IMG/VR virus record: IMGVR_UViG_3300031857_000570
Span: 1 to 37,542 of that record
Source of the DNA: a virus
DNA length: 37,542 bases
Direction: 5' to 3' (one strand)
In this document: piece after piece, positions 15,071-37,437 of the stretch
Layout of the letters: each line of letters starts with the position of its first letter
Position numbering within the stretch: the stretch's first letter is position 1
Program-made: the position numbers and the translations under genes
The notes under the pieces: generated by a model
What the model was told of the DNA's origin: nothing
Database searches by the model: none
Seen by the model: only the letters and a program-made list of their open reading frames with translations

Positions 15071-15748
15071 ATGAGAAAAGAAGAAGAATTGGAACTGCTT
15101 AAAAAACATCTTTTTAATATTTGTGGTCTTCATAATGAAAAAAATTCTGATTTAAACAGAGCAATAGCAGATGCAAAATCTCTGTTGATGGAATTATATC
15201 CAGAACCAGTTACAGAATGGTCTCAAGAAATTGAATGGAGAGTTTGTCCAGATTTTCCTGATTATGAAGTTTCAAACTATGGTGATGTAAGAAGATGCAA
15301 AGTTTGCACAAGAAATAGACAGTCATTCAAAGGAAAAATTTTAAAACCAAAAATAGATAAAAGAGGATATTATCAATATACATTATCAAAAGATAAAAAA
15401 TTTCATTACTTAACTGGACATAAATTGGTAGCAATTACATATATTGGAATGCCTTTAAATAAAAGTTTTGTAATTGCACATTTGGATGGAAGTAAATCTA
15501 ATAATTTTGTTGCAAATTTAAAATGGGTTAGCAATTCTGAAAATCAATTACACAGAAGAGTTCACGAAGATTTTGTTCCATTTAAGGGACATAATTCTTT
15601 GAGTGTTGAAGAAGTTAAAGATATTAGAAAAAGATTTATGGGAGGTGAATTGCAATCAAATTTAGCATCCAAATATGAGGTTTCTTACGGAGTAATAAAT
15701 AAGATTGTTAATAATGTAACATATATAAGGAGCATTTACTGTGTCTAA
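15071..15748 (+). CDS. HNH homing endonuclease with NUMOD4 domain
   Basis: This 225-aa protein has an unusual acidic N-terminal extension (1-50). A NUMOD4 motif (about 55-103) follows with WRVCPDFPDYEVSNYGDVRR and ILKPKIDKRGYYQYTL. The HNH nuclease core has H117 (GHKLV) and VIAHLDGSKSNNFVANLKW with H137, N144/N145 and N149, then SENQLHR. A C-terminal helix-turn-helix (about 177-221) reads SVEEVKDIRKRFMGG and NLASKYEVSYGVINKIV. Such free-standing enzymes cut intronless alleles and spread their gene into co-infecting phage genomes. Its 3' end contains the Shine-Dalgarno and GTG start of the next fibre gene, with an 8-bp overlap, so it has integrated into the operon without breaking expression. 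Confidence 0.88.
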   Translation: MRKEEELELLKKHLFNICGLHNEKNSDLNRAIADAKSLLMELYPEPVTEWSQEIEWRVCPDFPDYEVSNYGDVRRCKVCTRNRQSFKGKILKPKIDKRGYYQYTLSKDKKFHYLTGHKLVAITYIGMPLNKSFVIAHLDGSKSNNFVANLKWVSNSENQLHRRVHEDFVPFKGHNSLSVEEVKDIRKRFMGGELQSNLASKYEVSYGVINKIVNNVTYIRSIYCV

Positions 15749-17663: not shown

Positions 17664-17668
17664 ACAAT

Positions 17669-18457
17669 ATGCCCACTAATCTTTCTACATTTTTAGGTTC
17701 AACATTCATAGGTACTCAAGGAGCCCAAGGTCTTCAAGGATTACAGGGAAGGCAAGGACTTCAAGGTCTTTCTAATCAAGGTTCTCAAGGACTTCAAGGT
17801 CTTTCTAATCAAGGTGTCCAAGGAACTCAAGGACTTCAAGGTCTTTCTAATCAAGGTACTCAAGGACTTCAGGGTCTTTCTAATCAAGGTTCTCAAGGAC
17901 TTCAAGGTCTTTCTAATCAAGGTTCTCAAGGACTTCAAGGTCTTTCTAATCAAGGTTCTCAAGGACTTCAAGGTCTTTCTAATCAAGGTGTCCAAGGAAC
18001 TCAAGGACTTCAAGGTCTTTCTAATCAAGGTACTCAAGGACTTGTTGGACCTATCGGCATAAATTATTGGGAAAAAACTGCTGCAGGTATTCACACTCTC
18101 TCAAAAGTTGGTATAGGAACCACAAATCCAACGGCACTGATTACAGTTAAATCTCAAAGTGTTAATGATTTTGTTGGTTTGTTCTCAGGAACTACTAATA
18201 CTGATTTGGTAAGAATTACTCAAGACGGAACTGGAAATGCTCTAAGAGTTGATGACCAAGCAGGAGGAACAACTCCATTTATTGTTGATAATCTTGGTAA
18301 AGTTGGTATCAATACACTAACCGCAACATCAAATCTTACAGTTTTTGGTAATAGTTTAGTAACTGGAATATCAACATCTCAGCACTTGGATGGAACAGCA
18401 ATTACAACCTTATCTGGTTCGGTGCTTGCATATTCTTATAGAATGACTATGCCCTAA
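17669..18457 (+). CDS. Short collagen-like fibre protein
   Basis: This 262-aa protein has an N-terminal cap of about 14 residues (MPTNLSTFLGSTFI). A rod follows whose dominant unit is GLSNQGSQGLQ, with variants carrying T or V in place of S. It ends GLVGPIGINYWEKTAAGIHT. The C-terminal globular part carries two beta modules, VGIGTTNPTALITVKSQ and VGINTLTATSNLTVFGNS, and ends VLAYSYRMTMP. The VGIGTTNP module also occurs in the 640- and 1310-aa fibres. It lacks the S74 cleavage domain found in its upstream neighbour, from which it is separated by 5 bp. Likely a short trimeric fibre or fibre extension; the ribosome-binding site is weak. Confidence 0.75.
   Translation: MPTNLSTFLGSTFIGTQGAQGLQGLQGRQGLQGLSNQGSQGLQGLSNQGVQGTQGLQGLSNQGTQGLQGLSNQGSQGLQGLSNQGSQGLQGLSNQGSQGLQGLSNQGVQGTQGLQGLSNQGTQGLVGPIGINYWEKTAAGIHTLSKVGIGTTNPTALITVKSQSVNDFVGLFSGTTNTDLVRITQDGTGNALRVDDQAGGTTPFIVDNLGKVGINTLTATSNLTVFGNSLVTGISTSQHLDGTAITTLSGSVLAYSYRMTMP
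17764..18036 (+). repeat. 33-bp tandem repeats coding GLSNQGSQGLQ
   Basis: The unit is GGTCTTTCTAATCAA + GGTTCTCAA + GGACTTCAA, 33 bp, repeated with a few unit variants in which GTC or ACT replaces TCT. The non-triplet GLSNQG break, occasional in other fibres here, is in this gene a regular part of every unit. Confidence 0.85.
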
Positions 18458-22107: not shown

Positions 22108-22115
22108 GATAAATA
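22108..22115 (+). promoter_or_regulatory. Late promoter-like box (GATAAATA) before the glycan cassette
   Basis: GATAAATA followed by C lies 32 bp before the ATG at 22140, directly after the last fibre gene. It is the last clear box before the following 12.5 kb of overlapping genes and so may drive the whole cassette late in infection. Confidence 0.6.
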
Positions 22116-22139
22116 CTCTCAAGAACACATAATGTCTTT

Positions 22140-23114
22140 ATGAACTTTGTTAAACTTGCATTGGAGAATGGTGGAAGTATTCACCCACTTATTATTCCTT
22201 CATTAGAACTAAAAGGTCCAGCAATTACAAATCCTTCCATTTACAACGATAATGGAAAAATTCTTGTAAATCTAAGGAATATTAACTATACTTTATATCA
22301 TTCAGAGAAGAAAAAGTTTGAGCATCATTGGGGACCTTTAGTTTACATTCATCCAGAAAATGATCTCCGGCTTCGCACTTGGAATTATATGTGCGAAATG
22401 GATGAAAATATGCACATTAAAAAATATAATCGCGTTGATACCTCAGATTTTCCAGATAAAGAACTCTGGGAGTTTGTTGGACTAGAGGATGCTCGTATTG
22501 TTCGTTGGGATGGAAAACTTTATATTTGTGGAGTTAGAAGAGACCTTGATACGATTGGTACTGGTCGTATGGAACTCTCTGAAATTGAAATTACTGAAAA
22601 TGGCGTAAAAGAACTTAAGCAATATCGTATTCCAACTCCAGGAGATAACAGTTCTTATTGCGAAAAGAATTGGATGCCCATTCTTGATATGCCTTTCCAT
22701 TTTGTTAAGTGGACAAATGGAACTGAAGTCGTAAAATACGATATTGAAACTGGAACAACAACTCAAGTTGCTCTTACTGAATGGAAAGATTTGGGTTGTA
22801 TTGATCTTCGCGGAGGATCTCAAGTCATTCCATTTGAGGAATATCGTTTCTGTCTTAATCACGAAACGTATTTAACCAAGAGTGAAGCAGGAAGAAAAGA
22901 CGGAACTTATCGCCATCGTTTTATTGTTTGGGATAAGAACTGGGATATTGTAAAAGTTTCCAGGCAGTTCTCATTTATGGAAGCAGAGATTGAGTTTGCT
23001 GTTGGAATGTGCGAGTATGGTGATGATTATCTTATGACTTTTGGTTTTCAAGATAATGCAGCATACCTTTTAAGAGTGTCTCAAAAGTTCGTGAAGGAGT
23101 TTATTTTTGAATGA
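22140..23114 (+). CDS. GH130-like five-bladed beta-propeller protein
   Basis: This 324-aa protein shows features of the GH130 / glycoside-phosphorylase propeller family. They include GLEDARIVRWDGKLYICGVR (114-133) with the ED-A/P-R core, EKNWMPI (175-181), a central RGGSQVIPFEEYRFCLNHET (224-243), and FAVGMCEYGDDYLMTFGFQD (286-305) near the end. The family acts on beta-mannosides and related oligosaccharides, often as phosphorylases; many distant members sit beside glycosyltransferases and have unknown activity. As first gene of the glycan cassette it may trim or transfer sugars. It overlaps the next gene by ATGA. Whether the full catalytic set is present cannot be judged by eye. Confidence 0.65.
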   Translation: MNFVKLALENGGSIHPLIIPSLELKGPAITNPSIYNDNGKILVNLRNINYTLYHSEKKKFEHHWGPLVYIHPENDLRLRTWNYMCEMDENMHIKKYNRVDTSDFPDKELWEFVGLEDARIVRWDGKLYICGVRRDLDTIGTGRMELSEIEITENGVKELKQYRIPTPGDNSSYCEKNWMPILDMPFHFVKWTNGTEVVKYDIETGTTTQVALTEWKDLGCIDLRGGSQVIPFEEYRFCLNHETYLTKSEAGRKDGTYRHRFIVWDKNWDIVKVSRQFSFMEAEIEFAVGMCEYGDDYLMTFGFQDNAAYLLRVSQKFVKEFIFE

Positions 23115-23731
23115 TTATACAAATTCAAGACATAATTCAAAAATACAATATGAACATTACAGGAGTAATTCATATTGGAGCACACTATGGAGAAGAAGTT
23201 CCTAATTACATTCAAAGTGGAATAAAGGATATTATTTTATTTGAACCTCTAAGAGAAAATTTTGAAATCCTAAAAAGAAATATATCTCACTTTACATATG
23301 CGAACATCAGAAAAAATCAAGTTGCATTAGGAAATTCTAATAAAACTATTTCAATGAACCTTTCCAGTAATGGTTTAGAAAGTAGTTCAATTCTAAAACC
23401 AAAACTTCATTTGGAATTATATCCAGACATTACTTTTGATAGAACTGAAGAAATTGAAATGCAAAAACTTGATGATTATAATTGTAAAAAATGCAATTTT
23501 ATCAATATAGATGTCCAAGGTTATGAACTTGAAGTACTAAAAGGTGCAGAAGAAACTCTTCAACATATTGATTATATTTACTGCGAAGTGAATGAAAGTG
23601 AAATTTATGAAGGTAATGCTTTTATTCATCAAATAGATGATTATCTAACCAAGTATAATATGAAAAGAGTTGAAACTTCTTGGTGGTATGACGCTGGTTG
23701 GGGAGATGCTCTTTATATCAAAATGAAATGA
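23111..23731 (+). CDS. FkbM-family SAM-dependent methyltransferase
   Basis: This 206-aa protein has SAM motif I as VIHIGAHYGEE (19-29), then an acidic loop, FEPLREN (44-50). The FkbM hallmark INIDVQGYELEVLKGAEETL is at 131-150. YIYCEVNESEIYEG follows, and the end has WWYDAGWGDALYIK. Family members O-methylate sugars or small molecules and are frequent in capsule, LPS and phage glycan clusters. Length matches a single-domain FkbM protein. It is coupled to both neighbours by 4-bp overlaps. Substrate is unknown; methylation of a sugar made by this cassette is the likely role. Confidence 0.88.
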   Translation: MIIQIQDIIQKYNMNITGVIHIGAHYGEEVPNYIQSGIKDIILFEPLRENFEILKRNISHFTYANIRKNQVALGNSNKTISMNLSSNGLESSSILKPKLHLELYPDITFDRTEEIEMQKLDDYNCKKCNFINIDVQGYELEVLKGAEETLQHIDYIYCEVNESEIYEGNAFIHQIDDYLTKYNMKRVETSWWYDAGWGDALYIKMK

Positions 23732-24477
23732 AAATCGCAGTATGTATCTCTGGAGGGGTTAGATATCCTCATCTTGGATTGCAAAGTATTCAAAAAATTA
23801 TTCCAAATGAATATGTAAAAGTTTTTATTCATACTTGGGAAATAAAGAATAGAAATTCTTTCATTCAAACTCTTTCTGGATTGCAGTATAAAGAGAAGGA
23901 TAAAATTGTTGAGACTGATCTTTCTCTTCTACAGAATTATAATTTTGAAAAGATTTTTATTGAAAACTATGAAGATAAAGAAGAACAATTCAAACAACTT
24001 TTCTCAGAACTAAATTTCGTTCCTTGGGATGAGGCAATAGATGAACCAAGATTTGATGTTGGTCCTATCAGTATGCACTATTCAATATTTAAAGCAAATG
24101 AGTTGAAAAGTGAATATGAAAAAGTAAACAATATTACCTTTGATTGGGTTATTCGTATGAGAACTGATAGTGATTTTAAATACGAAACACTTAATATGAA
24201 TTCTTTAATTGAAGATTTGAATATACCATCAGGTGAAGATTGGGCAGAAAATGCGATCAATGATCAATTTTCTATAGGAAGATCAAATGTTATGGATCTT
24301 TATTCAAATCTTTATAATAATTTGCATAAAACTCAGACAACAAAGTATTATCCCGAAAATTTATTATTTACACATTTGAATAATTTTGGATTGACTCCAA
24401 ATAGAATTGATTTTCCAGTAAGAATTAATAATGGAATAGATTTTAGAAAAGTTTGGTATCCTCATTTGGTTGAATAA
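23728..24477 (+). CDS. Putative glycosyltransferase (R-x-R-x-D type)
   Basis: The ATG at 23728 overlaps the previous stop (ATGA) and gives 249 aa beginning MKIAVCISGGVRYPHLGLQS. An in-frame upstream start at 23698 would only add residues read from inside the methyltransferase gene. Motifs are VFIHTWEIKNR (32-42), DVGPISMHYSIFKANELK (110-127) and FDWVIRMRTDSDF (138-150). The R-x-R-T-D strand followed by a second Asp looks like the DXD-type nucleotide-sugar site of a GT-A fold in uncharacterised glycosyltransferases of capsule clusters. The family is not one I can name with certainty. Location between FkbM and GT11 supports glycan assembly. Confidence 0.65.
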   Translation: MKIAVCISGGVRYPHLGLQSIQKIIPNEYVKVFIHTWEIKNRNSFIQTLSGLQYKEKDKIVETDLSLLQNYNFEKIFIENYEDKEEQFKQLFSELNFVPWDEAIDEPRFDVGPISMHYSIFKANELKSEYEKVNNITFDWVIRMRTDSDFKYETLNMNSLIEDLNIPSGEDWAENAINDQFSIGRSNVMDLYSNLYNNLHKTQTTKYYPENLLFTHLNNFGLTPNRIDFPVRINNGIDFRKVWYPHLVE

Positions 24478-24478
24478 A

Positions 24479-25225
24479 GTGATTTCATTTAATAATCTTG
24501 GACATATGGGACGTTTAGGAAATCAGATGTTTCAATATGCATCTCTACGTGGAATAGCATCCCATAATGGATATTCATACTCAATTCCTAAAGACACTTC
24601 TCTAACAGAATGTTTCAAAATATCGGAAACTTTACATAATCAAAATTATGAGAGTATAAGTGTAGATAGATTTGAGTTTGATAAAAATTTTTTTGATACT
24701 TGCCCAGATAATGTAGATTTATTAGGATATTTTCAAAGCGAAAAATATTTCAAACATATAGAAGATAAAATTAGACAAGATTTTACTTTTCATGATAAAA
24801 TAGATAGAATGTGTTCTCATTACAGAAAGTATATCTTTCCAAATACTGAACTCATATCTCTTCACATAAGAAGAACTGATTACATTACTGATGCAAACTT
24901 TGAATGCCTTTCTTTGGAATACTATAATAATGCTTTAGAGTTATTGCCAAATCTTCCTGTAATGATATTCAGCGATGATCCAAATTGGTGTAAGGATCAA
25001 TTCAATCATGAAAGATTTAAAATTTCATTATCAAATGATCCTTATATTGATCTCTGCTTAATGTCTATGTGTGATTATCATATCATCGCAAACAGTTCTT
25101 TCAGTTGGTGGGGTTCTTGGTTAGCAAAAAGTAAGAAAACAATTGCTCCTAGAAAATGGTTTTGTGGAGAGTTTTCAAATTGGAACACTCAAGACTTATA
25201 TCTTTCTGATTGGTCTATTCTTTAA
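24479..25225 (+). CDS. Alpha-1,2-fucosyltransferase-like glycosyltransferase (GT11)
   Basis: A GTG start at 24479 gives 248 aa reading MISFNNLGHMGRLGNQMFQY, the usual GT11 N-terminus. A TTG at 24470 would add three residues and overlap the previous gene. GT11 signatures are GRLGNQMFQYA (11-21), GYFQSEKYF (83-91), SLHIRRTDY (127-135, the HxRR donor-binding motif) and IANSSFSWWGSWLA (203-216). Length is slightly under the usual 280-300 aa but all motifs are present. The family transfers fucose from GDP-fucose to galactose or related acceptors on LPS or capsule. GDP-fucose would have to come from the host, as no synthesis gene is seen here. Confidence 0.88.
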   Translation: MISFNNLGHMGRLGNQMFQYASLRGIASHNGYSYSIPKDTSLTECFKISETLHNQNYESISVDRFEFDKNFFDTCPDNVDLLGYFQSEKYFKHIEDKIRQDFTFHDKIDRMCSHYRKYIFPNTELISLHIRRTDYITDANFECLSLEYYNNALELLPNLPVMIFSDDPNWCKDQFNHERFKISLSNDPYIDLCLMSMCDYHIIANSSFSWWGSWLAKSKKTIAPRKWFCGEFSNWNTQDLYLSDWSIL

Positions 25226-25252
25226 TATATACAACATTACTTTTAATTTAAT

Positions 25253-25999
25253 ATGGATTTTACAACTGACTTACATAATAAAGCAATTGTTGATACTGGG
25301 TATGTATATTGGGGAAGAGAAAATCATTCCTATGTATATACTGGATATGTTGATAAGTTTATGGAAAAAATTCACGGTCTTGGTTGGGGACCAAAAGTTT
25401 ATCTTGATATTGGATCTAGGGATTTGATGCAAACTATTGAAGTTGCTCAATATCATCCGGGAACTAGATTTATTGCGTTTGAACCTGTTCCTTGGCAATA
25501 TCAAGTTTGTTATGAAAGAAGTTTAGAATGGGATAATGTTGAGGTTTATAATTATGCCATTTCGGATGAAGAAGGATATGCAGATTTTTGGGAAATGGAT
25601 ACAAATACTGGAGGATCATCTCTTTTAGAACCCATTGATGTTCCTGGAAGTAACAATGTAAGTAAGAAAATTACCGTTGAATGTAAAAGACTTGATAATT
25701 TTTTAAAATCTTTGGGTATAGAATCTGTTGATTGTTTATGGATGGACACTCAAGGAACAGAGTTAAAAGTATTAAAAAGTTTGGGAAATTATATAGACAA
25801 TGTTTTGTTTGTGCATACTGAAGCTGCCCCAAAACCTTACTATAAGGGACATATTCTAAAAGATGAACTAGAAGAATTTCTTCTCAAAAAAGGATTTGAC
25901 CTAGAATTCCATACAAATGGACCTCATCCATATGATGAAGGTGATATAATTGCATCAAAACCAAAACTTGTTGAATTTTTATTAAAAAAACAATCATGA
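25253..25999 (+). CDS. FkbM-family SAM-dependent methyltransferase (second)
   Basis: This 248-aa protein has SAM motif I VYLDIGSRDLMQ (49-60), FEPVPWQ (76-82) and a variable insert, GGSSLLEPIDVPGSNNV. The FkbM signature VDCLWMDTQGTELKVLKSLG (159-178) is followed by VLFVHTEAAPKPYYKGH. It shares the family but little sequence with the methyltransferase at 23111, so they probably modify different positions. The N-terminal 45 residues (YWGRENHSYVYTGYVDKFME) look like an added cap. It is separated from the fucosyltransferase by 27 bp and overlaps the next gene by ATGA. Confidence 0.85.
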   Translation: MDFTTDLHNKAIVDTGYVYWGRENHSYVYTGYVDKFMEKIHGLGWGPKVYLDIGSRDLMQTIEVAQYHPGTRFIAFEPVPWQYQVCYERSLEWDNVEVYNYAISDEEGYADFWEMDTNTGGSSLLEPIDVPGSNNVSKKITVECKRLDNFLKSLGIESVDCLWMDTQGTELKVLKSLGNYIDNVLFVHTEAAPKPYYKGHILKDELEEFLLKKGFDLEFHTNGPHPYDEGDIIASKPKLVEFLLKKQS

Positions 26000-27609
26000 A
26001 AGTCTTATACGTTTATAATTTTGCTTATGCAGACTATCAAAGCGATAGCATTTATCATGGTCTGATTGATAGTGGAGTTGAGGTTTATGAGACTGCATAT
26101 CCAGCATATATGCTACAAGGATATGAAAACGCCCATTATCTTCACGGAAAAGGATTTACAATTCATGGAAAGTTAAATCATACTCCGAGAGTTGATGAAC
26201 CAGAAGTCATCAAAGAAAAAATTAAAAATAGATTTTATGATCTGGTAATTTATGGATGTGTTTATACACACTTTATGCTTCCTCAAAGACAATCTTTGGA
26301 TTATTTGCAGGAAGTAATTCAATCTTATTCTAAAGATAAAGTTCACTTTGTAGATGGTTGTGATGACATTCCAAACTTTGCATATGGTTTAGGATTGCAT
26401 AAGTACGGAACAGTTTGGAAAACAAATGGCGCCGATGATAAGCACGGCAAGTCTATTTCATTTGCAATTCCAGAAAGTCAGTTGCTTGAATATAAACCAC
26501 AAAAGGAAAAGTTCTTTGCTGACATTATTCCCGGGGTACAAGAAACTTACCGTTTTACTGATGAAAATGAATATTATCACGACTATGCGATTTCTTATTA
26601 TGGTAAGACTTGGAGAAAGGGTCAGTGGAATTGTATGAGGCATCTTGAAATTCTTGCAAACCGATGTATTCCTTATTTCCCTGGATTAGAAAATTGTCCG
26701 GAATGGATTATGAAGAATTTTCCAAAAGAAATTATTTTGGAAACAAACAAGTATGCCGAACAAGGTAAAATTCATCCACAATATGAAGAACTAAATGAGA
26801 TTCTCTTTGAGTATACTAAGCAAAATCTAACAACGAAAAAACTTGCTGAAAGATTTTTAAATTCTTCAAAAGAAATAAATGAATATTCGCTACCCAGTAT
26901 ACAAAATATTTCTCCCTTAAATCCATATATTTCTAAAAAAGGTAATTCTAATCACCAATATGCAGAAATAATTGAAAGAGCATTTCAAAAGGCTTGCTTG
27001 GATAAGCAAGATGTTCCTGACTGGATTTTATATTATGGTGGAGCATCCGGAACTAGATATCGTATTATGATAAACGATATAATTAAAAATATTCCAGATG
27101 CCAGATATCTTGAGATTGGAATGTGGACTGGTTCTACTTTATTTGCTGCTCTATCAAATAATAAAGTTAAGGCAACTGGAATTGATAATTGGACGCAGGG
27201 TTTTTATGGTGATGTAAAAAATCAATTCTATCAGTTTCTTCAGGGTTGTATTACCTATGATAATTCAATTGCTCTTTACGAAACCGAATTCCAGAAGATT
27301 GATTATACCCAAATAGGAAAGCATAATGTTTTTCTTTATGATGGACCCCATGACGAACAAGAACAATATGACGGTGTTAGTCTTCCTTATGATGCTTTAG
27401 ATGACACATTTATCTTAGTCGTTGATGATTGGAATTGGCCTTCTCCTAGAAATGGAACGTTTCGGGCATTAAATGATAAAAATATTGAGATTGTTTATTC
27501 AATTGAGATAAGAACAACTTCCAACGATTATTTTCCTCCCGAAGAATATCACGGTCAAAGTCATCATTGGCATGATGGTTATCTGATTGCTGTTTGCCAA
27601 AAAAGATAA
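25996..27609 (+). CDS. Fusion: GT-B-like glycosyltransferase domain + class I SAM methyltransferase
   Basis: This protein is 537 aa. The N-terminal part (1-about 290) begins MKVLYVYNFAYADYQSDSIY, with VIYGCVYTHFMLPQR (84-98), and a CgeB/exostosin-like end YYGKTWRKGQWNCMRHLEIL then ANRCIPYFPG (201-230). This pattern is typical of GT-B proteins. The C-terminal part (about 320-537) has motif I ARYLEIGMWTGSTLFAAL (369-386), GIDNW, VFLYDGPHDEQEQYDGV (445-461) and VVDDWNWP, typical of Methyltransf_24-like enzymes with a metal-binding DG/DDW pattern. One chain may add and methylate the same sugar. It overlaps its predecessor by ATGA and is 3 bp from the WavE-type gene. The methyltransferase call is stronger than the glycosyltransferase call. 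Confidence 0.72.
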   Translation: MKVLYVYNFAYADYQSDSIYHGLIDSGVEVYETAYPAYMLQGYENAHYLHGKGFTIHGKLNHTPRVDEPEVIKEKIKNRFYDLVIYGCVYTHFMLPQRQSLDYLQEVIQSYSKDKVHFVDGCDDIPNFAYGLGLHKYGTVWKTNGADDKHGKSISFAIPESQLLEYKPQKEKFFADIIPGVQETYRFTDENEYYHDYAISYYGKTWRKGQWNCMRHLEILANRCIPYFPGLENCPEWIMKNFPKEIILETNKYAEQGKIHPQYEELNEILFEYTKQNLTTKKLAERFLNSSKEINEYSLPSIQNISPLNPYISKKGNSNHQYAEIIERAFQKACLDKQDVPDWILYYGGASGTRYRIMINDIIKNIPDARYLEIGMWTGSTLFAALSNNKVKATGIDNWTQGFYGDVKNQFYQFLQGCITYDNSIALYETEFQKIDYTQIGKHNVFLYDGPHDEQEQYDGVSLPYDALDDTFILVVDDWNWPSPRNGTFRALNDKNIEIVYSIEIRTTSNDYFPPEEYHGQSHHWHDGYLIAVCQKR

Positions 27610-27612
27610 GTT

Positions 27613-28386
27613 ATGTACGATGATATTTCATTAGTTATTCAGGGTCCAGCATCAGATAAAGAAAAGTTGGACTTTGTTGATGCTCTTCCTTATTATAAAA
27701 CTTTGTTTTCTGAAATTATATTATCAACTTATACTGAACACTTAATATCTAATTGGCAACTTCTAAAAGTGTGTGAAGAAAATGATATTAAAATAGTTCA
27801 TAAAACTGTTGATATTAACAAATCATTATTAGATCATCCTACTAGCCCTTGCATTTATTATCAGACATATACAAGTTTGAATGGGTTTAAATTTTCATCA
27901 AAAAAATATACTATTAAACATAGAATAGATGAAAGGTATTCTAATTTGCATCTTTTAATTGATAAATTTTTGACTAGTAATGAGAAGTGGGTTTCGGGTG
28001 GAATGCTATTTGCCCCAAAGGTATGGAGATCTTTTTGTGCAGGAGATCATTTGTTTATTGCTCAAACAGAAAAACTAATTAAAACATTTGAATTGACAGA
28101 AGAACATCTAAGTAATAAATCTTTTTTGGAAGAAGGTCCAGAAATTACATATACAAAAAATTTTCTAAGAATTAATAATGAAGATCCTTCAGATGAAAAT
28201 CATGACGAATTGATGAGAAAATATTTTGATTTTGTCCCCGATAAGTATATGTTTCCTTTTATAATCAGATCTAATACTAATGAAGAAGGAAATAAAGTTT
28301 GGAGGACTCTTGAAGAATATGGTTCACTTAGATCTCAATATGAAACACTAGATGACATTTTTTATAGTCCATATTTACCTTGGTAA
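27613..28386 (+). CDS. WavE-type LPS core biosynthesis protein
   Basis: This 257-aa protein opens with DISLVIQGPASDKEK (4-18), the WavE-family start. SEIILSTYTEHL (33-44) and YTIKHRIDERYSNL (99-112, with R104, D106, E107 and R108) follow. GMLFAPKVWRSFCAGDHLFI (130-149) matches the family's 'FaGDhlfig' segment. PF07507 proteins are linked to LPS core synthesis in Vibrio and occur in other surface-polysaccharide loci. They are probably GT-A glycosyltransferases, although the reaction is poorly defined. It is flanked closely by the methyltransferase fusion and the nucleotidyltransferase. Confidence 0.78.
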   Translation: MYDDISLVIQGPASDKEKLDFVDALPYYKTLFSEIILSTYTEHLISNWQLLKVCEENDIKIVHKTVDINKSLLDHPTSPCIYYQTYTSLNGFKFSSKKYTIKHRIDERYSNLHLLIDKFLTSNEKWVSGGMLFAPKVWRSFCAGDHLFIAQTEKLIKTFELTEEHLSNKSFLEEGPEITYTKNFLRINNEDPSDENHDELMRKYFDFVPDKYMFPFIIRSNTNEEGNKVWRTLEEYGSLRSQYETLDDIFYSPYLPW

Positions 28387-28394
28387 AAATTAAT

Positions 28395-29108
28395 ATGAAT
28401 GTCCTTATTCCTATGGCGGGTGAGGGAACAAGATTCCCAAGAGATACCTACAAAATTCCAAAACCCTTAATTGATATTAGAGGAGTTCCAATGATCCAGA
28501 GAGCAATTGAATCTCTTGGTCTTATTGGAACTTATCATTTTGTCATTCGTAAAGACAGTTATTACGATCAAGTATGCACCTTACTACACAAAACTTTATC
28601 AGATCCAAAAATCATTAGTGTAGAAGAAACTACAGAAGGACCGGCATCAAGTTCTTTATTGTTCAAAGATTTCATCAATACTGAAGAAGAACTTGTAATT
28701 GCAAACTGTGATCAAATTATGTGGTGGGATGCAGACCTTTTTCTCACAAATGCAAGATATTATAAGTATGATGGTTTAATTGTAACTTATAGCACAACAA
28801 CCCCAAAAAATAGTTACGCTAGAATTGATAGAAATGGATTTGTCCAAGAGATTAGAGAAAAGGAAGTGATTAGTGATATTTCTTTAAATGGAATTCATTA
28901 TTGGAGGAAAGGTAGATACTTCGTTGAAAGTACAGAATCTATGATGAGAATGAATGATCGAGCTCCGAATGGAGAGTTTTATGTTGGTCCTACATACAAT
29001 CATATGATCCAACAAGGACTTAAAGTTGGAATTCATCATATTCCTAACTGGCAACACAATCCAGTTGGTGTTCCTGAGGATCTTGAAACTTTTTTGAAAA
29101 AATTATGA
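28395..29108 (+). CDS. Sugar-phosphate nucleotidyltransferase-like protein
   Basis: The ATG at 28395 gives 237 aa beginning MNVLIPMAGEGTRFPRDTYK. A TTG at 28380 overlapping the previous gene is less likely. The activating loop GEGTRF, KPLIDIRGVPMIQRAIESLG, the metal-site NCDQIMWW and SLNGIHYWRKGRYF are standard for NTP_transferase enzymes that make NDP-sugars or CDP-alcohols from NTP and a phosphorylated substrate. The C-terminus IPNWQHNPVGVPEDLETFLK is the usual lid. The sugar is unknown. It is coupled to the cupin gene by ATGA and so directly linked with the cupin/RuBisCO-like pair. Confidence 0.82.
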   Translation: MNVLIPMAGEGTRFPRDTYKIPKPLIDIRGVPMIQRAIESLGLIGTYHFVIRKDSYYDQVCTLLHKTLSDPKIISVEETTEGPASSSLLFKDFINTEEELVIANCDQIMWWDADLFLTNARYYKYDGLIVTYSTTTPKNSYARIDRNGFVQEIREKEVISDISLNGIHYWRKGRYFVESTESMMRMNDRAPNGEFYVGPTYNHMIQQGLKVGIHHIPNWQHNPVGVPEDLETFLKKL

Positions 29109-29440
29109 ATATTACAAAAATAACTGATTATGTCAGAGGGTGGTTCATTGGAAACTTTGAACCATCTCTTTTAAAAACTTCTGCTTTTGAAGTTGGTGTT
29201 CTTACACATAAGAAAGGAGAATACTGGGCTCCACATTATCATAAGGAAAGTATAGAATATAATGTTCTCATAACTGGCAAAATGATCGTCCAGGGAAAGG
29301 AGTTAAATAGTGGTGATGTATTTGTATTCGACAAAGGAGAAGTTGCTGACCCAATTTTTCTTGAAGATTGTACATTAGTTGTAGTTAAAACACCATCTAT
29401 TCCTTCTGATAAATTTGAGGTTGAGAATGAAATTCTTTAG
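29105..29440 (+). CDS. Small cupin
   Basis: This 111-aa single-domain cupin has motif 1, GEYWAPHYHKESIEYNVLITG, spanning about 38-58, with H44, H46 and E51 as likely metal ligands. Motif 2 is weaker (GDVFVFDKGEVADPIF). Cupins of this size in sugar clusters are isomerases, epimerases or small binding proteins acting on NDP-sugars or sugar acids. Motif 2 lacks an evident histidine, so the metal site may be incomplete. It overlaps the nucleotidyltransferase by 4 bp and the RuBisCO-like gene by 14 bp, the tightest packing in the cassette, which suggests the three products serve one step series. Confidence 0.75.
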   Translation: MNITKITDYVRGWFIGNFEPSLLKTSAFEVGVLTHKKGEYWAPHYHKESIEYNVLITGKMIVQGKELNSGDVFVFDKGEVADPIFLEDCTLVVVKTPSIPSDKFEVENEIL

Positions 29441-30665
29441 AGAACTTACTGAATATGAAAGAGATCGTTGCGTAGTTGCAACATATTACATCGAATCATA
29501 TGAAAATATTGGAACATTAAGGGATGCTGCCTGGAATCTTGCCATTGGGCAAAGTGTCGGCAACCCTAAAGTAAGAAATCGTTGGGAGAGTGATGAACTC
29601 TTTGAACTAGCATCTTGTGTCATCTATGCTGATGAACAAGAACTTTCTCAACAGACAAAGGGACAAGTTAAAATTGGTTTCCCCAAAGTTAATACTGACT
29701 GGGAAGGTGATGGCATTTCACATCTTCTTTGCCAACTGATGGGTGGGCAATTGGATATTGATGTGTTCAAAGTCTGTCGTCTTCAGAAATTGGAGTTTCC
29801 TGCTGATGTAGAAGCACAATTCCTTGGACCCAAGAATGGTATTGATGGGATTCGTAAGTTTGTCAATCGTTATGACAAACCACTTTCTGGTGCGATTGTA
29901 AAACCCAAGACAGGTATTTCACCACAAACTCTTTCTGAGATGGTGAAGGAACTTCTTGATGGTGGTGTAGATTTCATCAAGGAAGATGAAATTCTTTCTA
30001 ATCCTTCCTTCTGCCGTCTTGAAGATCGTGTAGAACTCATTTCAAATATCGTAAACAACTGTGGTCGTAATGTCATTTATACTTTCTGTATTAATGGTGA
30101 TCACCATACTATTCTTGATCGTGCTAAATTTGTTGCTGACAATGGTGGGAATGGTATTCATATTAATTTTTGGTCTGGTCTTGGGGTTTATAACTCTGTA
30201 AGAAAGATGGACCTGCCTCTGTTCATTCACTATCAGAAGAGTGGTGATAAGATCCTGACTGATAAGAGACACGCATTTGGAATAGATTGGGATGTTCTCT
30301 GCGACCTTGCTGGTCTGTGTGGTGTTGATACCATCCATGCAGGAATGTGGGGTGGTTATCTGAGTGATGATGAGAATGAACTTCGTCAAACGATGTCAAC
30401 ACTTCACAAACGGAATGTTCTCCCAGCATTGAGCTGTGGGATGCATCCAGGCATCGTCAACACCACTGCAGAGAAGTTCGGCACGGACTTCCTTGCTAAC
30501 TGTGGAGGTGCCATCCACGGGCATCCAGAGGGCACTCTGTCGGGTGCTCTGGCAATGAGACAATCTATTGATAAAACTCCTGGTCCAGAATTTCGTGCTG
30601 CCATTGATAAGTGGGGTTATGAAACTGGTGGTGGTTCTCTTCCTGAGTGGGTATTAGATTTTTGA
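29427..30665 (+). CDS. RuBisCO-like protein (form IV-type, probably not a carboxylase)
   Basis: The ATG at 29427 follows GAGG by 7 nt and gives 412 aa, full length for RuBisCO-like proteins. Conserved segments are GAIVKPKTGIS (155-165; K159 and K161 match K175/K177 of plant RbcL) and GGVDFIKEDE (179-188; K185, D187 and E188 match K201, D203 and E204). TIHAG (302-306; H304 = H327), PALSCGMH (S336 = S379) and CGGAIHGHPEG (359-369) are also present. By hand alignment several catalytic residues are replaced: Q270 at H294, K271 at R295, Y311 at K334, N46 at T65 and H99 at N123. This suggests an enolase, isomerase or transcarboxylase-type reaction on a sugar acid, as known for RuBisCO-like proteins, not CO2 fixation. 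Its 3' half is GC-richer than its neighbours. Confidence 0.88.
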   Translation: MKFFRELTEYERDRCVVATYYIESYENIGTLRDAAWNLAIGQSVGNPKVRNRWESDELFELASCVIYADEQELSQQTKGQVKIGFPKVNTDWEGDGISHLLCQLMGGQLDIDVFKVCRLQKLEFPADVEAQFLGPKNGIDGIRKFVNRYDKPLSGAIVKPKTGISPQTLSEMVKELLDGGVDFIKEDEILSNPSFCRLEDRVELISNIVNNCGRNVIYTFCINGDHHTILDRAKFVADNGGNGIHINFWSGLGVYNSVRKMDLPLFIHYQKSGDKILTDKRHAFGIDWDVLCDLAGLCGVDTIHAGMWGGYLSDDENELRQTMSTLHKRNVLPALSCGMHPGIVNTTAEKFGTDFLANCGGAIHGHPEGTLSGALAMRQSIDKTPGPEFRAAIDKWGYETGGGSLPEWVLDF

Positions 30666-30690
30666 TTAATTTTAAAATAGGAGTAAAAAA

Positions 30691-31851
30691 ATGAATTTTT
30701 CTGTAGACAATTATACCAGATGGAAAGAAGATCTGATAAAAAATATTCGATATAATGATTATAGGGATGATCTTGATTGGAATGGTGGAGAGTTTCCAGA
30801 AATACCAATTAAAAATGTTGATCTTAGGCATTCAAACCATGGATATACTATTACTCAGAGCGAGTGTAATTTGAATAATATTAGAGATTACTTTTTTAAA
30901 ATCCGAGATCAGTGCAAATGTATTCTTGAGATTGGAGTTGATTGTAATGCAACCGCAACTGAAAGAACATCTACAAGAATTTTCTTGGACAATAAGTTAG
31001 ATGAAACTATCTACATTGGACTTGATCTTAATGATAAGAGTTACTTAAATGATGAAAGTAAAAATATTTTTACTTTCCAAGCAGACTCTTCTGATACTGA
31101 ATCTGTTATGAATTTCATTCAATCAAAGGGAATTTCTGAGATAGATTTTATTTTTATAGATGGTTGGCACAGTATTAACCAAGTTATGAAAGATTGGGAA
31201 TACACCAAATACCTTTCTGACTTTGGTATTGTTGGATTTCATGATACTGCATCTCATCCAGGTCCTCACTCATTTATAAATGCTTTAGACAAAACAAAGT
31301 GGAATATAGTTGAAAATCCATGCTCAAATAACCAAAATGATTGGGGAGTTGGGTTTGCCTGGAGATGTAAAAAGAAAATACAAATCATTTCCCATAGAGG
31401 TAATCTTAACGGACCAAATCCATCAAGAGAAAATAGTCCAGAGTATATTGATGAAGCAATTGCAGCAGGATTTGATGTTGAAATTGATGTCAGATGTGAA
31501 GATCATAAGTTTTATCTTGGTCACGATGGACCTCAATATGAAATTCCTATGACTTGGTTATGGAAAAGGAAAGATAAACTTTGGATTCATTGTAAAGATC
31601 TGAGATCATTGGATGTTCTCTCTAGTAGTCCAGTTGATTTTCACTACTTTTGGCACGATATAGATAGATACACACTCACCAGTAAAGGTATTGGTTGGGT
31701 TTTAGTTGGTCAGTTTCCATTCAAAAAATCAATCGTAGTTCTTCCAGAATCTATTCATTATTATGATAAGTATGAGGGGAACTATGATAGAATATTAGAA
31801 ACGATGGGAATTTGTACCGATAAACCATTATTTTATAAAAATGAGTTATGA
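30691..31851 (+). CDS. Fusion: class I SAM methyltransferase + GDPD-like phosphodiesterase domain
   Basis: This 386-aa protein has a good ribosome-binding site, AGGAGT, 7 bp before ATG. Residues about 55-225 form a methyltransferase: CILEIGVD (77-84), YIGLDLNDK (108-116), IDFIFIDGWHSINQVMKDWE (151-170) and GIVGFHDT (179-186). Residues 230-386 form a GDPD-like TIM-barrel. Its features are IISHRGNLNGP (H235, R236), GFDVEIDVRC (E264, D266), YLGHDGPQYEI (H278), WIHCKDLRSLDVL (K302) and HYFWHDIDRYTLTSKG. The GDPD family cleaves glycerophosphodiesters; this short subfamily is common in phages and surface-sugar loci. The fusion may act on a glycerol-phosphate-decorated glycan, an inference. It overlaps the next gene by ATGA. 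Confidence 0.8.
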   Translation: MNFSVDNYTRWKEDLIKNIRYNDYRDDLDWNGGEFPEIPIKNVDLRHSNHGYTITQSECNLNNIRDYFFKIRDQCKCILEIGVDCNATATERTSTRIFLDNKLDETIYIGLDLNDKSYLNDESKNIFTFQADSSDTESVMNFIQSKGISEIDFIFIDGWHSINQVMKDWEYTKYLSDFGIVGFHDTASHPGPHSFINALDKTKWNIVENPCSNNQNDWGVGFAWRCKKKIQIISHRGNLNGPNPSRENSPEYIDEAIAAGFDVEIDVRCEDHKFYLGHDGPQYEIPMTWLWKRKDKLWIHCKDLRSLDVLSSSPVDFHYFWHDIDRYTLTSKGIGWVLVGQFPFKKSIVVLPESIHYYDKYEGNYDRILETMGICTDKPLFYKNEL

Positions 31852-34685
31852 GCATTTCTGTAATTTGTGCGTGCAAAAATCGCAATTCCCCTCTTCACAT
31901 ATCGTTAAATTCTTGGTTAAATTTTAAAGAAATTACTGAGATTATTATAGTTGATTGGAGTTCTGATGAACCTTTAGGATATCTAACTAAACTTGATCCA
32001 CGGATTAAAATTGTAAGAGTTTCAGATAAAAAATATTTTAATCAACCACAACCTTTAAACCTTGCTGCAAGTATTGCGACTGGTGATTATATTCTTAAAC
32101 TTGATACTGATTATATAACTAATCCATATTTCAATTTTATTGAAAGATATTTTCCTACAGATAATTCTTTCACTTCAGGAGTTCATAATATCAAAAGTCC
32201 AGAATACTATGACGAAGAAACTGGTCTTTATATGATCGACAAATCTAGTATGAGTGATGCTGATTTGCAGGAATATTTCAACTCTTATAGCCCATACTTT
32301 AAGTATCTTACTGGATTTTTATTTGTTAGTAGAGAGAACTTTAATAAAGTTGGTGGATATAATGAAAATCTTGGAAAATACTATGCATTTGAGGATAGTG
32401 AGATTTATAAGAGATTGGAAAATCTTGGATTAACTCACAACAAAATGGATTATGATTATAATTTAATTCATATTCCACACCCAGATGTTAAGAGAGTTGA
32501 AAACTTTGAGGGTTATGATGAAAAAGATAGAGAATGGATAAATTCAATTCAATATGATCCAGATAGATGGCAAGCCGAATACTTCATTTCTCAATCACAT
32601 GTTAAACAAAATGTAGGAATGATTGGAGAAATTGATTATACATATGTCAATTCAAAGACTAAATGGGATGTTATTAGAGTAGATGAACAAAATTATTTTG
32701 CAGAAGATCTAAAAGTGGAAAATAAGTTAGATGGATTTTCAAGTGTTTATTATGTAAGTCTTGAAGAATGTGGGAATAGAAGAAGAAATCTGGAATTTGA
32801 ATTTGATAAGTATAATATCCAACCAAAAGCAATCATATCAAAAAGATTTTCAGAATGCAGTGATATTATTACAGGAAAATATGTTTATCAGTTAAATGAT
32901 GGAACAAAGGGATGTTGCATATCTCATCTTAAAGCAATTAAAGATTGGTATGAAAATACTGATGAAGACTATGGATTTTTCTGTGAGGATGATTTAAGTC
33001 TAGAAACAGTTGAATATTGGAATTTTACTTGGCAACAATTTATAGAAAGTATTCCAGAAGATGCAGATTGCGTTCAGTTACTTACAATCCGTAGTGAGTT
33101 TGATACATTTGAAATTCGTGAGAGATATTGGGATGATTGGGGAGCAACAGCATATATTATGACTAGAGATTATGCTAAAAAGATAATTGATACTTATGTC
33201 AAAGAAGATTCATATCATTTAGAAATTCCAAATCAAGACGTAATGCCTTTAATAGAAAATATTCTGTTTGCAAGTGTTGGAAAAACATATACTTACCCAA
33301 TATTTGTTGAAAATATTGATTTTAAATCCACTTTTGTTGGAAATGATGATGATGTAAGTGATGGTCAAAAAACAAATCATAAGAAGTCAAGAGAGATTGT
33401 TTTAAATTATTGGAAAAATAAAAATATAGTAGAAAAGACGGAACTTGAAGTCCTTTTAACGGAATATTCTTGCGATACTGAAAATCCGGAACATAATTTT
33501 AGTCTTGGTATTTGGTATGAAAATGAAGGACACACTGCCCCAGCTCTTTCATACTATTTAAGATGTGCAGAAAGAGCATATGAATCTAATTCAGATTTAG
33601 CATATGAAGCCCTCATTCGGGGTTCTTATTGCTACGAGAAGCAGGGAACAAGAGATGGAAGTGCAAGATCAATGCTCTGGCAAGCACAAGCATTTAGACC
33701 AGATAGACCAGAGTCACACTTTTTATTGTCAAGATTTGCAGAGAGAAGAGAATGGTGGCAAGATTGTTATATGAATGCAGATTTGGCACTTAGATATTGC
33801 AATTTTGACAATCAACCTCTTCGCACTAATGTTGAATATCCAGGGCAATATGGACTTTTATACTTAAAATCAATTGCTGCTTGGTGGTGGGGGAAGGGAA
33901 AAGAAACTAGACTTCTCCTACAAGAAATAAAAAATAATCATCAAGTTAGATCTGAAGATTTTGATTTAATTCAAAATCGCTTGATGGAATTAGCTACTGG
34001 ATATATTCCAGAATCTGAATTAAAGTACACTAAGAATACTGGTCAAGAGTTAAGATTTAAATTTAATGATTGTGAAAATATAGAGAGAAATTATTCGCAA
34101 GCATTTCAAGATTTATTTGTATTGACTGCTTTAGATGGAAAGAAAAATGGAACTTATCTTGAAATAGGAGCACAAGAACCATTTTATCAAAATAATACTG
34201 CTCTTTTAGAAACTCAATTTGAGTGGAAAGGTGTATCTATAGAAATACGTCAAGATTTGTGTGAAATGTTTTCTCAACAAAGAAAAAACACAATATTATG
34301 TCAGGATGCTACAAAAATAAATTATCTTAACTTATTGAACAATTTTAAGTATGGAAATATAATTGATTATCTTCAAGTGGATTGTGAGCCATCTAAAACT
34401 ACATTTGAAATCTTATTAATGATTCCATTTGATGAATATCAATTCAGAATTATTACTTATGAGCACGATTATTATGTTGATTTAACAAATTCATATAGAG
34501 ACAAATCTAGAGAATACTTATTGTCAAAAGGATATAAACTTCTTGTTTCTAACGTCGCACTAAATGAATGGAGTCCATTTGAAGATTGGTGGTATCATCC
34601 AGATCTTGTTGATCCTGCCATTGTAGAACAAGTAAAAAATATATCCGACATTACAGATATAAGGCACTATATGATTGAACGCTAA
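31848..34685 (+). CDS. Four-domain glycan enzyme: GT2 + GT25 + TPR-like + SAM methyltransferase
   Basis: This protein is 945 aa. Residues 1-250 are a GT2 glycosyltransferase (MSISVICACKNRN, IIIVDWSSDEP, DYILKLDTDY with D86-x-D88, YAFEDSEIYKRL). Residues about 296-525 are a GT25-type domain (SSVYYVSLEECGNRRRNLEF, KGCCISHLKAIKDW, DYGFFCEDDLSLE with E380-D-D382, DDWGATAYIMTRDYAKKIID). Residues about 545-715 are helical, TPR-like repeats (NPEHNFSLGIWYENEGHTAP, SHFLLSRFAERREWWQDCYM). Residues about 748-920 are an FkbM/Methyltransf-like domain (NGTYLEIGAQEPFY, DYLQVDCEPS). Two transferases, a scaffold and a methyltransferase in one chain could assemble and cap one repeat unit. It is last in the cassette and is followed by a strong hairpin. 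Confidence 0.82.
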   Translation: MSISVICACKNRNSPLHISLNSWLNFKEITEIIIVDWSSDEPLGYLTKLDPRIKIVRVSDKKYFNQPQPLNLAASIATGDYILKLDTDYITNPYFNFIERYFPTDNSFTSGVHNIKSPEYYDEETGLYMIDKSSMSDADLQEYFNSYSPYFKYLTGFLFVSRENFNKVGGYNENLGKYYAFEDSEIYKRLENLGLTHNKMDYDYNLIHIPHPDVKRVENFEGYDEKDREWINSIQYDPDRWQAEYFISQSHVKQNVGMIGEIDYTYVNSKTKWDVIRVDEQNYFAEDLKVENKLDGFSSVYYVSLEECGNRRRNLEFEFDKYNIQPKAIISKRFSECSDIITGKYVYQLNDGTKGCCISHLKAIKDWYENTDEDYGFFCEDDLSLETVEYWNFTWQQFIESIPEDADCVQLLTIRSEFDTFEIRERYWDDWGATAYIMTRDYAKKIIDTYVKEDSYHLEIPNQDVMPLIENILFASVGKTYTYPIFVENIDFKSTFVGNDDDVSDGQKTNHKKSREIVLNYWKNKNIVEKTELEVLLTEYSCDTENPEHNFSLGIWYENEGHTAPALSYYLRCAERAYESNSDLAYEALIRGSYCYEKQGTRDGSARSMLWQAQAFRPDRPESHFLLSRFAERREWWQDCYMNADLALRYCNFDNQPLRTNVEYPGQYGLLYLKSIAAWWWGKGKETRLLLQEIKNNHQVRSEDFDLIQNRLMELATGYIPESELKYTKNTGQELRFKFNDCENIERNYSQAFQDLFVLTALDGKKNGTYLEIGAQEPFYQNNTALLETQFEWKGVSIEIRQDLCEMFSQQRKNTILCQDATKINYLNLLNNFKYGNIIDYLQVDCEPSKTTFEILLMIPFDEYQFRIITYEHDYYVDLTNSYRDKSREYLLSKGYKLLVSNVALNEWSPFEDWWYHPDLVDPAIVEQVKNISDITDIRHYMIER

Positions 34686-36825: not shown

Positions 36826-37437
36826 ATGACCTACAAAGCAACTCTCAAAGTTAAGTTTGATACTGAGTTCGTCAATCAATCCTCTTATGGTGTGTATGAT
36901 GATGAAACTCTTCCCGAAGAGCATTATACCTTTGAGGTTCCTGCTCACGATCTGAATACCATTCAACTGTTCCGTTTCTTTGGAACTGTTGCCCGCACGA
37001 TGGGACATAATGATGTGGGCATTATGAAAGGTGCTGCATCTCTTGCATTCAATGATATGCGTAATGAAGAGGATATGAAAAGGGTTGCTGATGAGTTTGA
37101 CCTGAAAATGGCAGAAGATTATGCAAAAGAACTTCGTAAGATGCAGGATGAGATTTATGTCCTGAAAGCAGAACTTTCCCGTCTTGAGCAACCTGATAAT
37201 CCTCAATATACTGATGAGGAAATGGAGGCGATGACTGCTCAGAATGAAGTCACCACACAAACTCTTAAGAACGCACAAGTGGTTTGCCGCGATTGTGGTT
37301 CTAAATATGGAACATATTCTGTTGGTTGTTCTTCTGTTTGGGAAGGTAAGTGTGGAGTATGTGGAGAAACTAAAGGTGTAACTGAAGTTCGTGATTATGC
37401 ATATTTGACTAAAGGTATCAAGGAGTTGTCTGAATGA
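36826..37437 (+). CDS. Coiled-coil protein with C-terminal zinc ribbon
   Basis: This 203-aa protein has an N-terminal beta region (TYKATLKVKFDTEFVNQ, HYTFEVPAHDLNTIQLFRFF). A helical centre includes coiled-coil-like EDYAKELRKMQDEIYVLKAE (about 97-116). A zinc ribbon follows with C154-x2-C157, C168, and C176-x2-C179 (VCRDCGSKYG ... GKCGVCGETKG). C154/C157/C176/C179 are the likely zinc ligands. Proteins like this appear in T4-like cyanophages and may bind nucleic acid or a host complex; the role is unknown. It has its own sigma70 promoter and overlaps the next gene by ATGA, so it is probably early. Confidence 0.72.
   Translation: MTYKATLKVKFDTEFVNQSSYGVYDDETLPEEHYTFEVPAHDLNTIQLFRFFGTVARTMGHNDVGIMKGAASLAFNDMRNEEDMKRVADEFDLKMAEDYAKELRKMQDEIYVLKAELSRLEQPDNPQYTDEEMEAMTAQNEVTTQTLKNAQVVCRDCGSKYGTYSVGCSSVWEGKCGVCGETKGVTEVRDYAYLTKGIKELSE

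Follow-up and report, generated by a model that had tools for sequence, protein, structure and literature searches.

What does a relative of RuBisCO do among the sugar-handling genes of a virus? The question is raised by IMG/VR virus record IMGVR_UViG_3300031857_000570, of which the whole stretch of 37,542 bases was analyzed (hereafter, the window). Positions 22140–34685 hold 12 consecutive intact genes, all on the + strand, which an earlier note made from the letters had described as a phage cassette for the synthesis and methylation of a surface glycan. One of these genes encodes a RuBisCO-like protein (RLP). It is the most informative gene of the cassette and part of a conserved unit composed of a nucleotidyltransferase (NTP), a cupin, the RLP, and a GDPD-fold domain. 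Gene order, subfamily, residue changes, purifying selection, and the association with the NTP were computed here. We consider it probable that the locus is a surface-glycan cassette with this four-domain core, in which a non-carboxylating RLP would enolise a ketose phosphate, the NTP would activate the product, and the cassette would attach it.

Identity and active site of the RuBisCO-like protein

The RLP gene (29427–30665, 412 amino acids) starts with the ATG at 29427, and the queries ran from 29433 onward. The protein belongs to the RuBisCO superfamily, with a match to RuBisCO_large (PF00016) at E = 1e-42, above the cut-off. The curated models for the carboxylating forms gave scores far below their cut-offs: 199.5 of 497 bits for form III, 190.9 of 438 bits for form I-type, and 104.7 of 489 bits for form II. 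The two MtnW models (TIGR03332, 125.8 of 513.6 bits; NF007095, 167.5 of 409 bits) and the OiaX model (NF042437, 151.6 of 700 bits) also remained below cut-off.

In a tree of 83 rows, a branch with 100/100 support divided the 37 rows of the RLP subfamily from the 46 reference rows (200/200 bootstraps). The subfamily was thereby separated from forms I, II, and III, from OiaX, and from the other RLPs sampled; the references did not include MtnW. This careful tree superseded a quick one and carries a long-branch warning at one row (L102) and between two reference groups. An identity as MtnW or OiaX was rejected on the scores far below the curated cut-offs, and OiaX also on the tree.

We compared the active sites in 13 displayed rows of the subfamily, from viruses, SAR11, archaea, Elusimicrobia, Azospirillum, Legionella, and one Bacteroidota bin, with residue numbers that we take to follow spinach RuBisCO. 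In 13 of 13 rows, E60 is replaced by G, T65 by N, N123 by G, H294 by Q, and K334 by Y. R295 has become K in 12 rows and is R in one, and H327 is H in 12 rows and Q in one. K175, K177, K201, D203, E204, S379, G381, G403, and G404 are kept. The RLP has the sequence signatures QKSGD and GMWGGY. With regard to the active site, the carbamylated lysine, the metal ligands, and part of the phosphate-binding site stay, and the residues of carboxylation are gone. This pattern also sets out how the subfamily relates to RuBisCO forms I–III, with which it shares the fold family and these retained sites, but from which it differs in the carboxylation residues, in tree group, and in having an NTP operon rather than Calvin or nucleotide-salvage genes around it. 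That the RLP is a non-carboxylase is well supported as a prediction from its sequence.

The RLP might instead be an auxiliary carbon-fixation gene, a viral rbcL that boosts CO2 fixation by the host, with glycan genes as incidental neighbors. Such a role would fit the RuBisCO_large match and the partial accounts of virus-borne rbcL as carbon-fixing in the Great Salt Lake, in landfill, and in contaminated soil (PMC8506154, PMC12607003, PMC12615777), to which our protein can be likened by description only; passages of the landfill study treat RbcL-like kinship and occurrence in IMG/VR (PMC12607003), and those of the soil study report activity of a viral rbcL expressed with rbcS (PMC12615777). An identity as RuBisCO carboxylase was, however, rejected on the replacement of E60, N123, and K334 in all 13 rows, the low form scores, and the separate tree group, and the conserved NTP neighbor described below likewise speaks against a carbon-fixation gene. 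Form I/III scans of IMG/VR, built on two and six short patterns, produced 115 and 1 hits to the patterns, none of which was confirmed as a relative; such scans see only the chosen patterns, and these had no positive control. We regard a role in carbon fixation as extremely improbable.

The ratio dN/dS between the RLP and its viral relatives was 0.027–0.076 in 8 of 11 comparisons, the other three being saturated, and purifying selection acts on the gene. This bears on the suggestion, raised as a possibility for the lipopolysaccharide (LPS) clusters of cyanophages in passages of PMC3037559, that such genes are mere stuffer DNA and do nothing for the virus. Stuffer DNA is disfavored because the RLP is under purifying selection (dN/dS of about 0.03–0.08); the intact reading frames and the gene order conserved across many contigs also count against it, and we find this explanation scarcely credible.

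The subfamily was found chiefly in uncultured viruses. In IMG/VR, the scans confirmed the RLP in 225 stretches, and in 298 when an alignment was used for the scan; among 50,697 isolate phage records, tblastn detected none. Across 84,980 cellular species (one genome each), 22 loci were confirmed, in SAR11 single cells, three Legionella, Azospirillum, Elusimicrobia, and some archaeal and other bins. A profile search of 691 genomes from three phyla yielded no new member of the subfamily beyond the loci already known: scores of at least about 295 bits occurred in four genomes, namely, the three starting genomes and one (G637) in which the fragment equals a known locus (L103) in score and length. 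In 72,556 plasmid records, the RLPs among the near-full matches shown had at most about 31% identity to that of the window.

The conserved unit and its neighborhood

The NTP (28395–29108) is of the MobA/sugar-1-phosphate type (PF00483, 1e-7) and is the constant part of the unit; its closest solved structure is 4evw (profile E = 2.6e-33). The earlier note's calls of a nucleotidyltransferase at 28395 and a RuBisCO-like protein at 29427 are both borne out by Pfam. Between these genes lies the cupin (29105–29440), which is constant in most viral loci. Its identification, also made in the earlier note, draws support from the cupins among the PDB neighbors of its AlphaFold model, but the Pfam match (Cupin_7, E = 1.7e-4) is under the cut-off. 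The model has a predicted local distance difference test (pLDDT) score of 94.7, and the structure search with Foldseek returned many cupins, with some phosphomannose isomerases ranked near the top. An isomerase or epimerase activity is conceivable for the cupin, although the Foldseek rows give no assignment. PDB searches with the single cupin sequence and with the sequence of 30691–31848 gave no match.

The fourth domain had been overlooked in the earlier note. The C-terminal part of the open reading frame (ORF) at 30691–31851 is a separate, short GDPD-fold domain (31375–31848), behind an N-terminal methyltransferase-like domain (30691–31374; Methyltransf_24, PF13578, 2e-4, under the cut-off) that has stand-alone relatives. 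In most related loci the GDPD domain is a gene of its own, and in the window it is fused. A profile match to the GDPD 7e0v (6e-5) was obtained, and the model (pLDDT 93.8) aligned with the GDPD 1o1z at Z 11.4 and a root-mean-square deviation of 3.3 over 146 aligned residues (VIA-align); GDPDs fill the first rows of that list, and the first clearly unrelated structure has Z 7.2. Foldseek alone gave no match to this model at E ≤ 0.001, and the Pfam GDPD model matched one of 25 domain relatives (E = 0.038) and not the domain of the window itself. Residues H7, R8, E19, N20, E36, D38, G49, and H50 are invariant in 25 of 25 relatives, and presumably correspond to the HRG, EN, EID, and GHD motifs of the GDPD family.

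To describe the neighborhood of the RLP in viruses, we used the best 80 of the 298 (and of the 225) stretches by similarity to the window. An NTP on the same strand lies within 1.4 kb of the RLP in 75 of these 80 loci and in 17 of the 22 cellular loci. Within the same distance, a cupin was found in 64 viral and 4 cellular loci, and a GDPD domain in 52 viral and 10 cellular loci; within 6 kb, the viral counts were 64 for the cupin and 63 for the GDPD domain. The order NTP–cupin–RLP, optionally followed by the GDPD domain, was seen in 62 of the 80 viral loci (35 with the GDPD domain, 26 without it, and 1 with a second NTP). As a control, 20 loci with other members of the RuBisCO family, drawn from three phyla, were inspected over about 6 kb on each side, because the first 64 control loci had flanks of only about 1–3 kb; none of the 20 had an NTP, cupin, or GDPD domain on either strand. 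Since the cupin and the GDPD domain are each missing from part of the RLP loci, both appear dispensable.

Two other roles that are known for RLPs can be weighed against these neighborhoods. MtnW, OiaX and their kin, and the form IV proteins of sulfur bacteria are, like the window RLP, non-carboxylating members of the superfamily, but they differ from it in their neighbors, and the MtnW and OiaX cut-offs are far from being reached. If the RLP served methionine/S-adenosylmethionine salvage, as a 2,3-diketo-5-methylthiopentyl-1-phosphate (DK-MTP-1P) enolase or as a methylthioribulose-phosphate isomerase with the cupin, its chemistry would be of the same enolisation type, and a pairing of an RLP with a cupin is reportedly known from Rhodospirillum rubrum. 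Nevertheless, the MtnW scores are low, the cupin is absent near the RLP in 18 of the 22 cellular loci, and those pathways have no place for a nucleotidyltransferase; we therefore judge salvage improbable, the R. rubrum proteins being considered by description only. Similarly, branched keto-sugar-acid phosphates are the substrates of OiaX and related enzymes, according to passages of PMC6302742, so that an RLP of this kind might degrade a host sugar. This proposal is very improbable in light of the OiaX score and the separation in the tree, and the inspected OiaX-type loci were flanked by a sugar-acid kinase or dehydrogenases, with no NTP, cupin, or GDPD domain in the control loci.

Around the unit, the SAR11 contigs contained an epimerase beside the RLP in one case and a GT17 gene in another. 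Taken with the glycosyltransferases and methyltransferases of the cassette and a LicD-family gene in Legionella, these neighbors point to glycans.

Several arrangements in the cellular loci were also recorded. In the three Legionella loci (L099, L100, and L101), the RLP adjoins the NTP, and in L101 the divergent LicD-family gene is next to the RLP; L099 and L100 contain ORFs similar in length to that gene, giving the same arrangement by length. In most of the SAR11 loci L090–L092 and L094–L096, the RLP is flanked by two nucleotidyltransferase-like genes. The upstream one in L095 may be degenerate, because it has no Pfam match and lacks the usual glycine-rich start.

Partner enzymes in other cassettes and a proposed role

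The earlier note had proposed looking for the same block in other marine T4-like phages. This search succeeded for the NTP, GDPD, and cupin families, which occur in Synechococcus phages, but not for the RLP. The NTP family was found in 19 isolate records, 18 of them Synechococcus phages, the GDPD domain in 16, and the cupin in 3. Phage Bellamy encodes an NTP::RpiB fusion (PF02502, 4e-32), with the cupin next in line; S-SKS1 encodes an NTP::RibB fusion (PF00926, 5e-65), after which come a HAD protein and a transaldolase; and the NTP of S-CAM9 is joined to a HAD domain. For Bellamy gp206 (L195:7838–8995; NTP::RpiB) and the S-SKS1 gene (L199:7001–8428; NTP::RibB, DHBP synthase), the deposited names, phosphatase and DHBP synthase, overlook the fusion.

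We anchored further IMG/VR scans on the two kinds of cupin, which was recognized in 68 of 72 loci for the Bellamy cupin and in 76 of 80 for the window type, the remaining four in each set being uncounted. The 68 Bellamy-type loci contained an NTP in 67, a PfkB-like gene in 66, HAD in 64, GDPD in 60, RpiB in 59, and the RLP in none. Among the 76 window-type loci, 75 had the RLP and none had RpiB. NTP::RpiB ORFs numbered 90 across the scans, which does not mean 90 distinct viruses because loci of different scans share contigs. In the RibB cassettes (10 loci), only the NTP is shared among the parts of the unit. Thus, the NTP, cupin, and GDPD domain are common to the RLP and RpiB cassettes, and the ketose-phosphate enzyme differs. 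On the best reading, the RLP appears to behave as an exchangeable module, in place of which other viruses would use RpiB (with a kinase and HAD phosphatase) or RibB together with an NTP of the same kind.

The activation of sugars of the ADP-heptose/Kdo-like type uses an isomerase, a kinase, a HAD phosphatase, and a nucleotidyltransferase. The RpiB cassettes match this set with their HAD, PfkB-like, and NTP::RpiB genes. Ribulose-5-phosphate is a substrate of both RpiB and RibB, and ribulose-1,5-bisphosphate is that of RuBisCO. Because so many viral sequences pair the RLP with the same sugar-activating gene, the RLP probably produces an unusual unit for surface sugars. We infer the substrate class, the order of the steps, and the attachment to the glycan as follows. 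The RLP would most likely enolise a phosphorylated 2-keto sugar at its site of carbamylated lysine and metal, and would thereby isomerise or epimerise it, or make or break a C–C bond in it. The NTP would convert the product to a unit linked to a nucleoside diphosphate (NDP), the glycosyltransferases and methyltransferases of the cassette would attach and finish the NDP-activated unit, and a phosphodiester step may fall to the GDPD-fold domain. The best reading is that the RLP supplies a glycan precursor. In broader terms, and with somewhat less confidence than for the cassette itself, we think it rather likely that viruses above all have adopted the RuBisCO fold for an exchangeable anabolic enzyme, one that makes a nucleotide-activated surface-glycan unit, probably derived from a ketose or pentulose. 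Such a role would be distinct from those of the superfamily in CO2 fixation, in the salvage of nucleotides or methionine, and in the breakdown of sugar acids.

Within the proposed cassette, the RLP could be an aldolase-type or C–C-cleaving enzyme rather than an isomerase or epimerase. RuBisCO and class II aldolases both work through the enediolate of a 1-phospho-2-ketone, and the C–C bond option is kept alive because some cyanophage cassettes hold class II aldolases (Bellamy gp211 and S-SM2 gp206) or a transaldolase (S-SKS1), together with the same NTP and GDPD families. Relatives of the Bellamy/S-SM2 aldolase and of the S-SKS1 transaldolase were nevertheless found in only 1 and 0 of the 80 viral RLP loci, respectively, and we consider a C–C-cleaving RLP unlikely, though the most serious of the alternatives.

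Several observations weigh against a glycan-precursor role for the RLP. First, the reaction, with its substrate and product, is a prediction from sequence and gene context. Second, the unit is not universal: 5 of the 80 viral and 5 of the 22 cellular loci have no NTP on the RLP strand within 1.4 kb (in three of these five viral loci the contig ends less than 0.7 kb upstream of the RLP), the cupin is missing near the RLP in the 18 cellular loci mentioned above and in 16 viral loci, and no GDPD domain lies within 6 kb in 17 viral loci. Third, the kinase and phosphatase of the RpiB cassettes were found in 0 of 80 RLP loci, in which the RLP cassettes differ from the ADP-heptose/Kdo-like set, and the swap of RLP and RpiB is therefore not one for one; the PfkB match is itself under the cut-off. 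Moreover, the mutual exclusion of RLP and RpiB may reflect descent, because the cupin lineages differ between them. Finally, the 22 cellular loci include possibly viral contigs, and the RLP of one of them (L082) is identical to that of a virus locus (L045).

Large LPS clusters are known in cyanophages, and their function is called unsettled in passages of PMC3037559. The LPS/glycan cassettes of the T4-like cyanophages P-SSM2, S-SM2, and S-SSM7 resemble that of the window in being phage-borne and in the same kinds of glycosyltransferases and nucleotide-sugar genes, as far as described in those passages (PMC3037559). S-SM2, S-CAM9, Bellamy, and others have the same NTP and GDPD families as the window, but the isolate cassettes carry RpiB, RibB, HAD, aldolase, or transaldolase domains in the RLP's stead. 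Passages of the Global Ocean Sampling (GOS) study describe marine RuBisCO homologs outside the four forms, with N123 among the residues that are not conserved (PMC1821046). Likened by description only, these may include the RLP group of the window, but those passages give no viral origin or operon for them, unlike our RLP. Searches of an open-access library brought up no published account of this RLP group, nor of any RLP encoded in a glycan operon. Phage glycan cassettes as such are thus already known, and what is new is the NTP–cupin–RLP core with the GDPD-fold domain, and a virus-rich RLP group in a setting of sugar activation.

If the proposed role is correct, the RuBisCO superfamily gains a new physiological setting, found more in viruses than in cells as far as the scans see, and the viral genes of this group that are automatically labeled rbcL would be glycan genes rather than carbon-fixation genes. 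Viral rbcL matches are not readable as carbon fixation before N123, K334, and the neighbors have been checked. The cassettes also offer a handle on how phage glycans diversify, with the NTP, cupin, and GDPD domain kept and the ketose-phosphate enzyme swapped among RLP, RpiB, and RibB, and each NTP pairing defines a small set of enzymes that can be assayed in vitro.

Other genes of the cassette and the window

The ORF coordinates and tight spacing confirm the 12-gene, same-strand layout at 22140–34685. Neighboring genes overlap at 7 of the 11 junctions, but the ATGA-type overlap of 4 bp, said in the earlier note to join most of them, occurs at 5 of the 11; one overlap is 8 bp and one is 14 bp. 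The other four junctions have gaps of 3, 8, 25, and 27 bp, the last being the maximum. The gene content, this spacing, and the matching cassettes in cultured Synechococcus phages all support the idea of a phage-borne cassette of coupled genes for glycan synthesis. It cannot be called complete, as had been suggested, since no flippase, polymerase, initiating transferase, or exporter was among the Pfam, NCBIfam, and PHROG hits of the 12 proteins; the host would therefore have to provide those steps.

The first cassette protein (22140–23114) had been called a GH130-like propeller. It matched no Pfam, NCBIfam, PHROG, or PDB profile, and we rejected GH130 as an established assignment because no profile matched. 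Its relatives in two Synechococcus phages (56–57% identity) bear the depositors' labels "MGP protein" and "beta-mannosyltransferase." Of the several methyltransferases proposed, two of the FkbM family are secure (23111–23731, PF05050 5e-19 and TIGR01444 1.5e-20; 25253–25999, PF05050 1e-18), but the Methyltransf_24 matches at 25996 and 30691 are under the cut-off; the former is the C-terminal region of a 537-amino-acid protein (25996–27609; PF13578, E = 0.0013; phrog_1458). The claim of at least four glycosyltransferases was partly upheld, with three domains in two ORFs. One is a GT11 (fucosyltransferase-type) enzyme (24470–25225; PF01531, 8e-27), whose TTG start is uncertain, and the other is a multidomain protein (31848–34685) with GT2/GT7C and GT25-like parts (PF02709, 5e-8; PF00535, 1.4e-7; PF01755, under the cut-off), in which the same stretch also matches the PHROG "glucosyltransferase" phrog_2835 (E = 1.4e-49). 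No glycosyltransferase match was obtained for the DUF7796 protein (23728–24477; PF25072, 4.7e-9; phrog_13607) or for the 257-amino-acid protein (27613–28386), which had no match in Pfam, NCBIfam, or PHROG.

The genes upstream of the cassette encode tail-fiber-like, collagen-like, and tail-assembly proteins, and tail-fiber-like genes directly precede the cassette. In phage DSL-LC02 (L493:8992–12702), a relative of the gene at 22140 and two FkbM methyltransferase genes are set between tail-fiber genes. We leave open a decoration of the virion because of the tail-fiber-like genes that adjoin the cassette and those that surround the glycan genes of DSL-LC02, whose arrangement is a hint that such genes could act on the particle.

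The late-type promoter box proposed for the cassette has one candidate, an ATAAATA (22109–22115, + strand, consensus match only) located 24 bp before the first gene, but the exact T4-type late box TATAAATA has no match in the window, and ATAAATA is rarer than expected by chance (8 occurrences vs. 13.8). All eight copies are on the + strand, and seven end 15–39 bp upstream of an ORF start; none lies inside the cassette. The longer form GATAAATAC occurs once (22108–22116), with a chance expectation of 0.45.

The window belongs to the cyanophage-like genome of an aquatic virus, and its cassette shares gene families with those of isolates. Synechococcus phages made up 6 of the 9 isolate records that matched the window by DNA, and all 54 records matching the ORF at 36826–37434 were Synechococcus phages or cyanophages. 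The gene for gp23 is absent from this 37.5-kb fragment of a possibly T4-like phage; it was present in 6 of the 25 records examined.

Elsewhere in the window, a NUMOD4/HNH homing-endonuclease-like gene (15071–15748) stands amid tail-fiber-like genes, and two adjacent tail-fiber-like genes (15741–18457) carry collagen-like repeats of the QGLQG type. A 2OG-Fe(II) oxygenase gene (982–1641) is close to the tail genes, and an open-ended ORF (3–956) contains repeat units of the STIDRLDFSTET type, which look propeller-like by eye.

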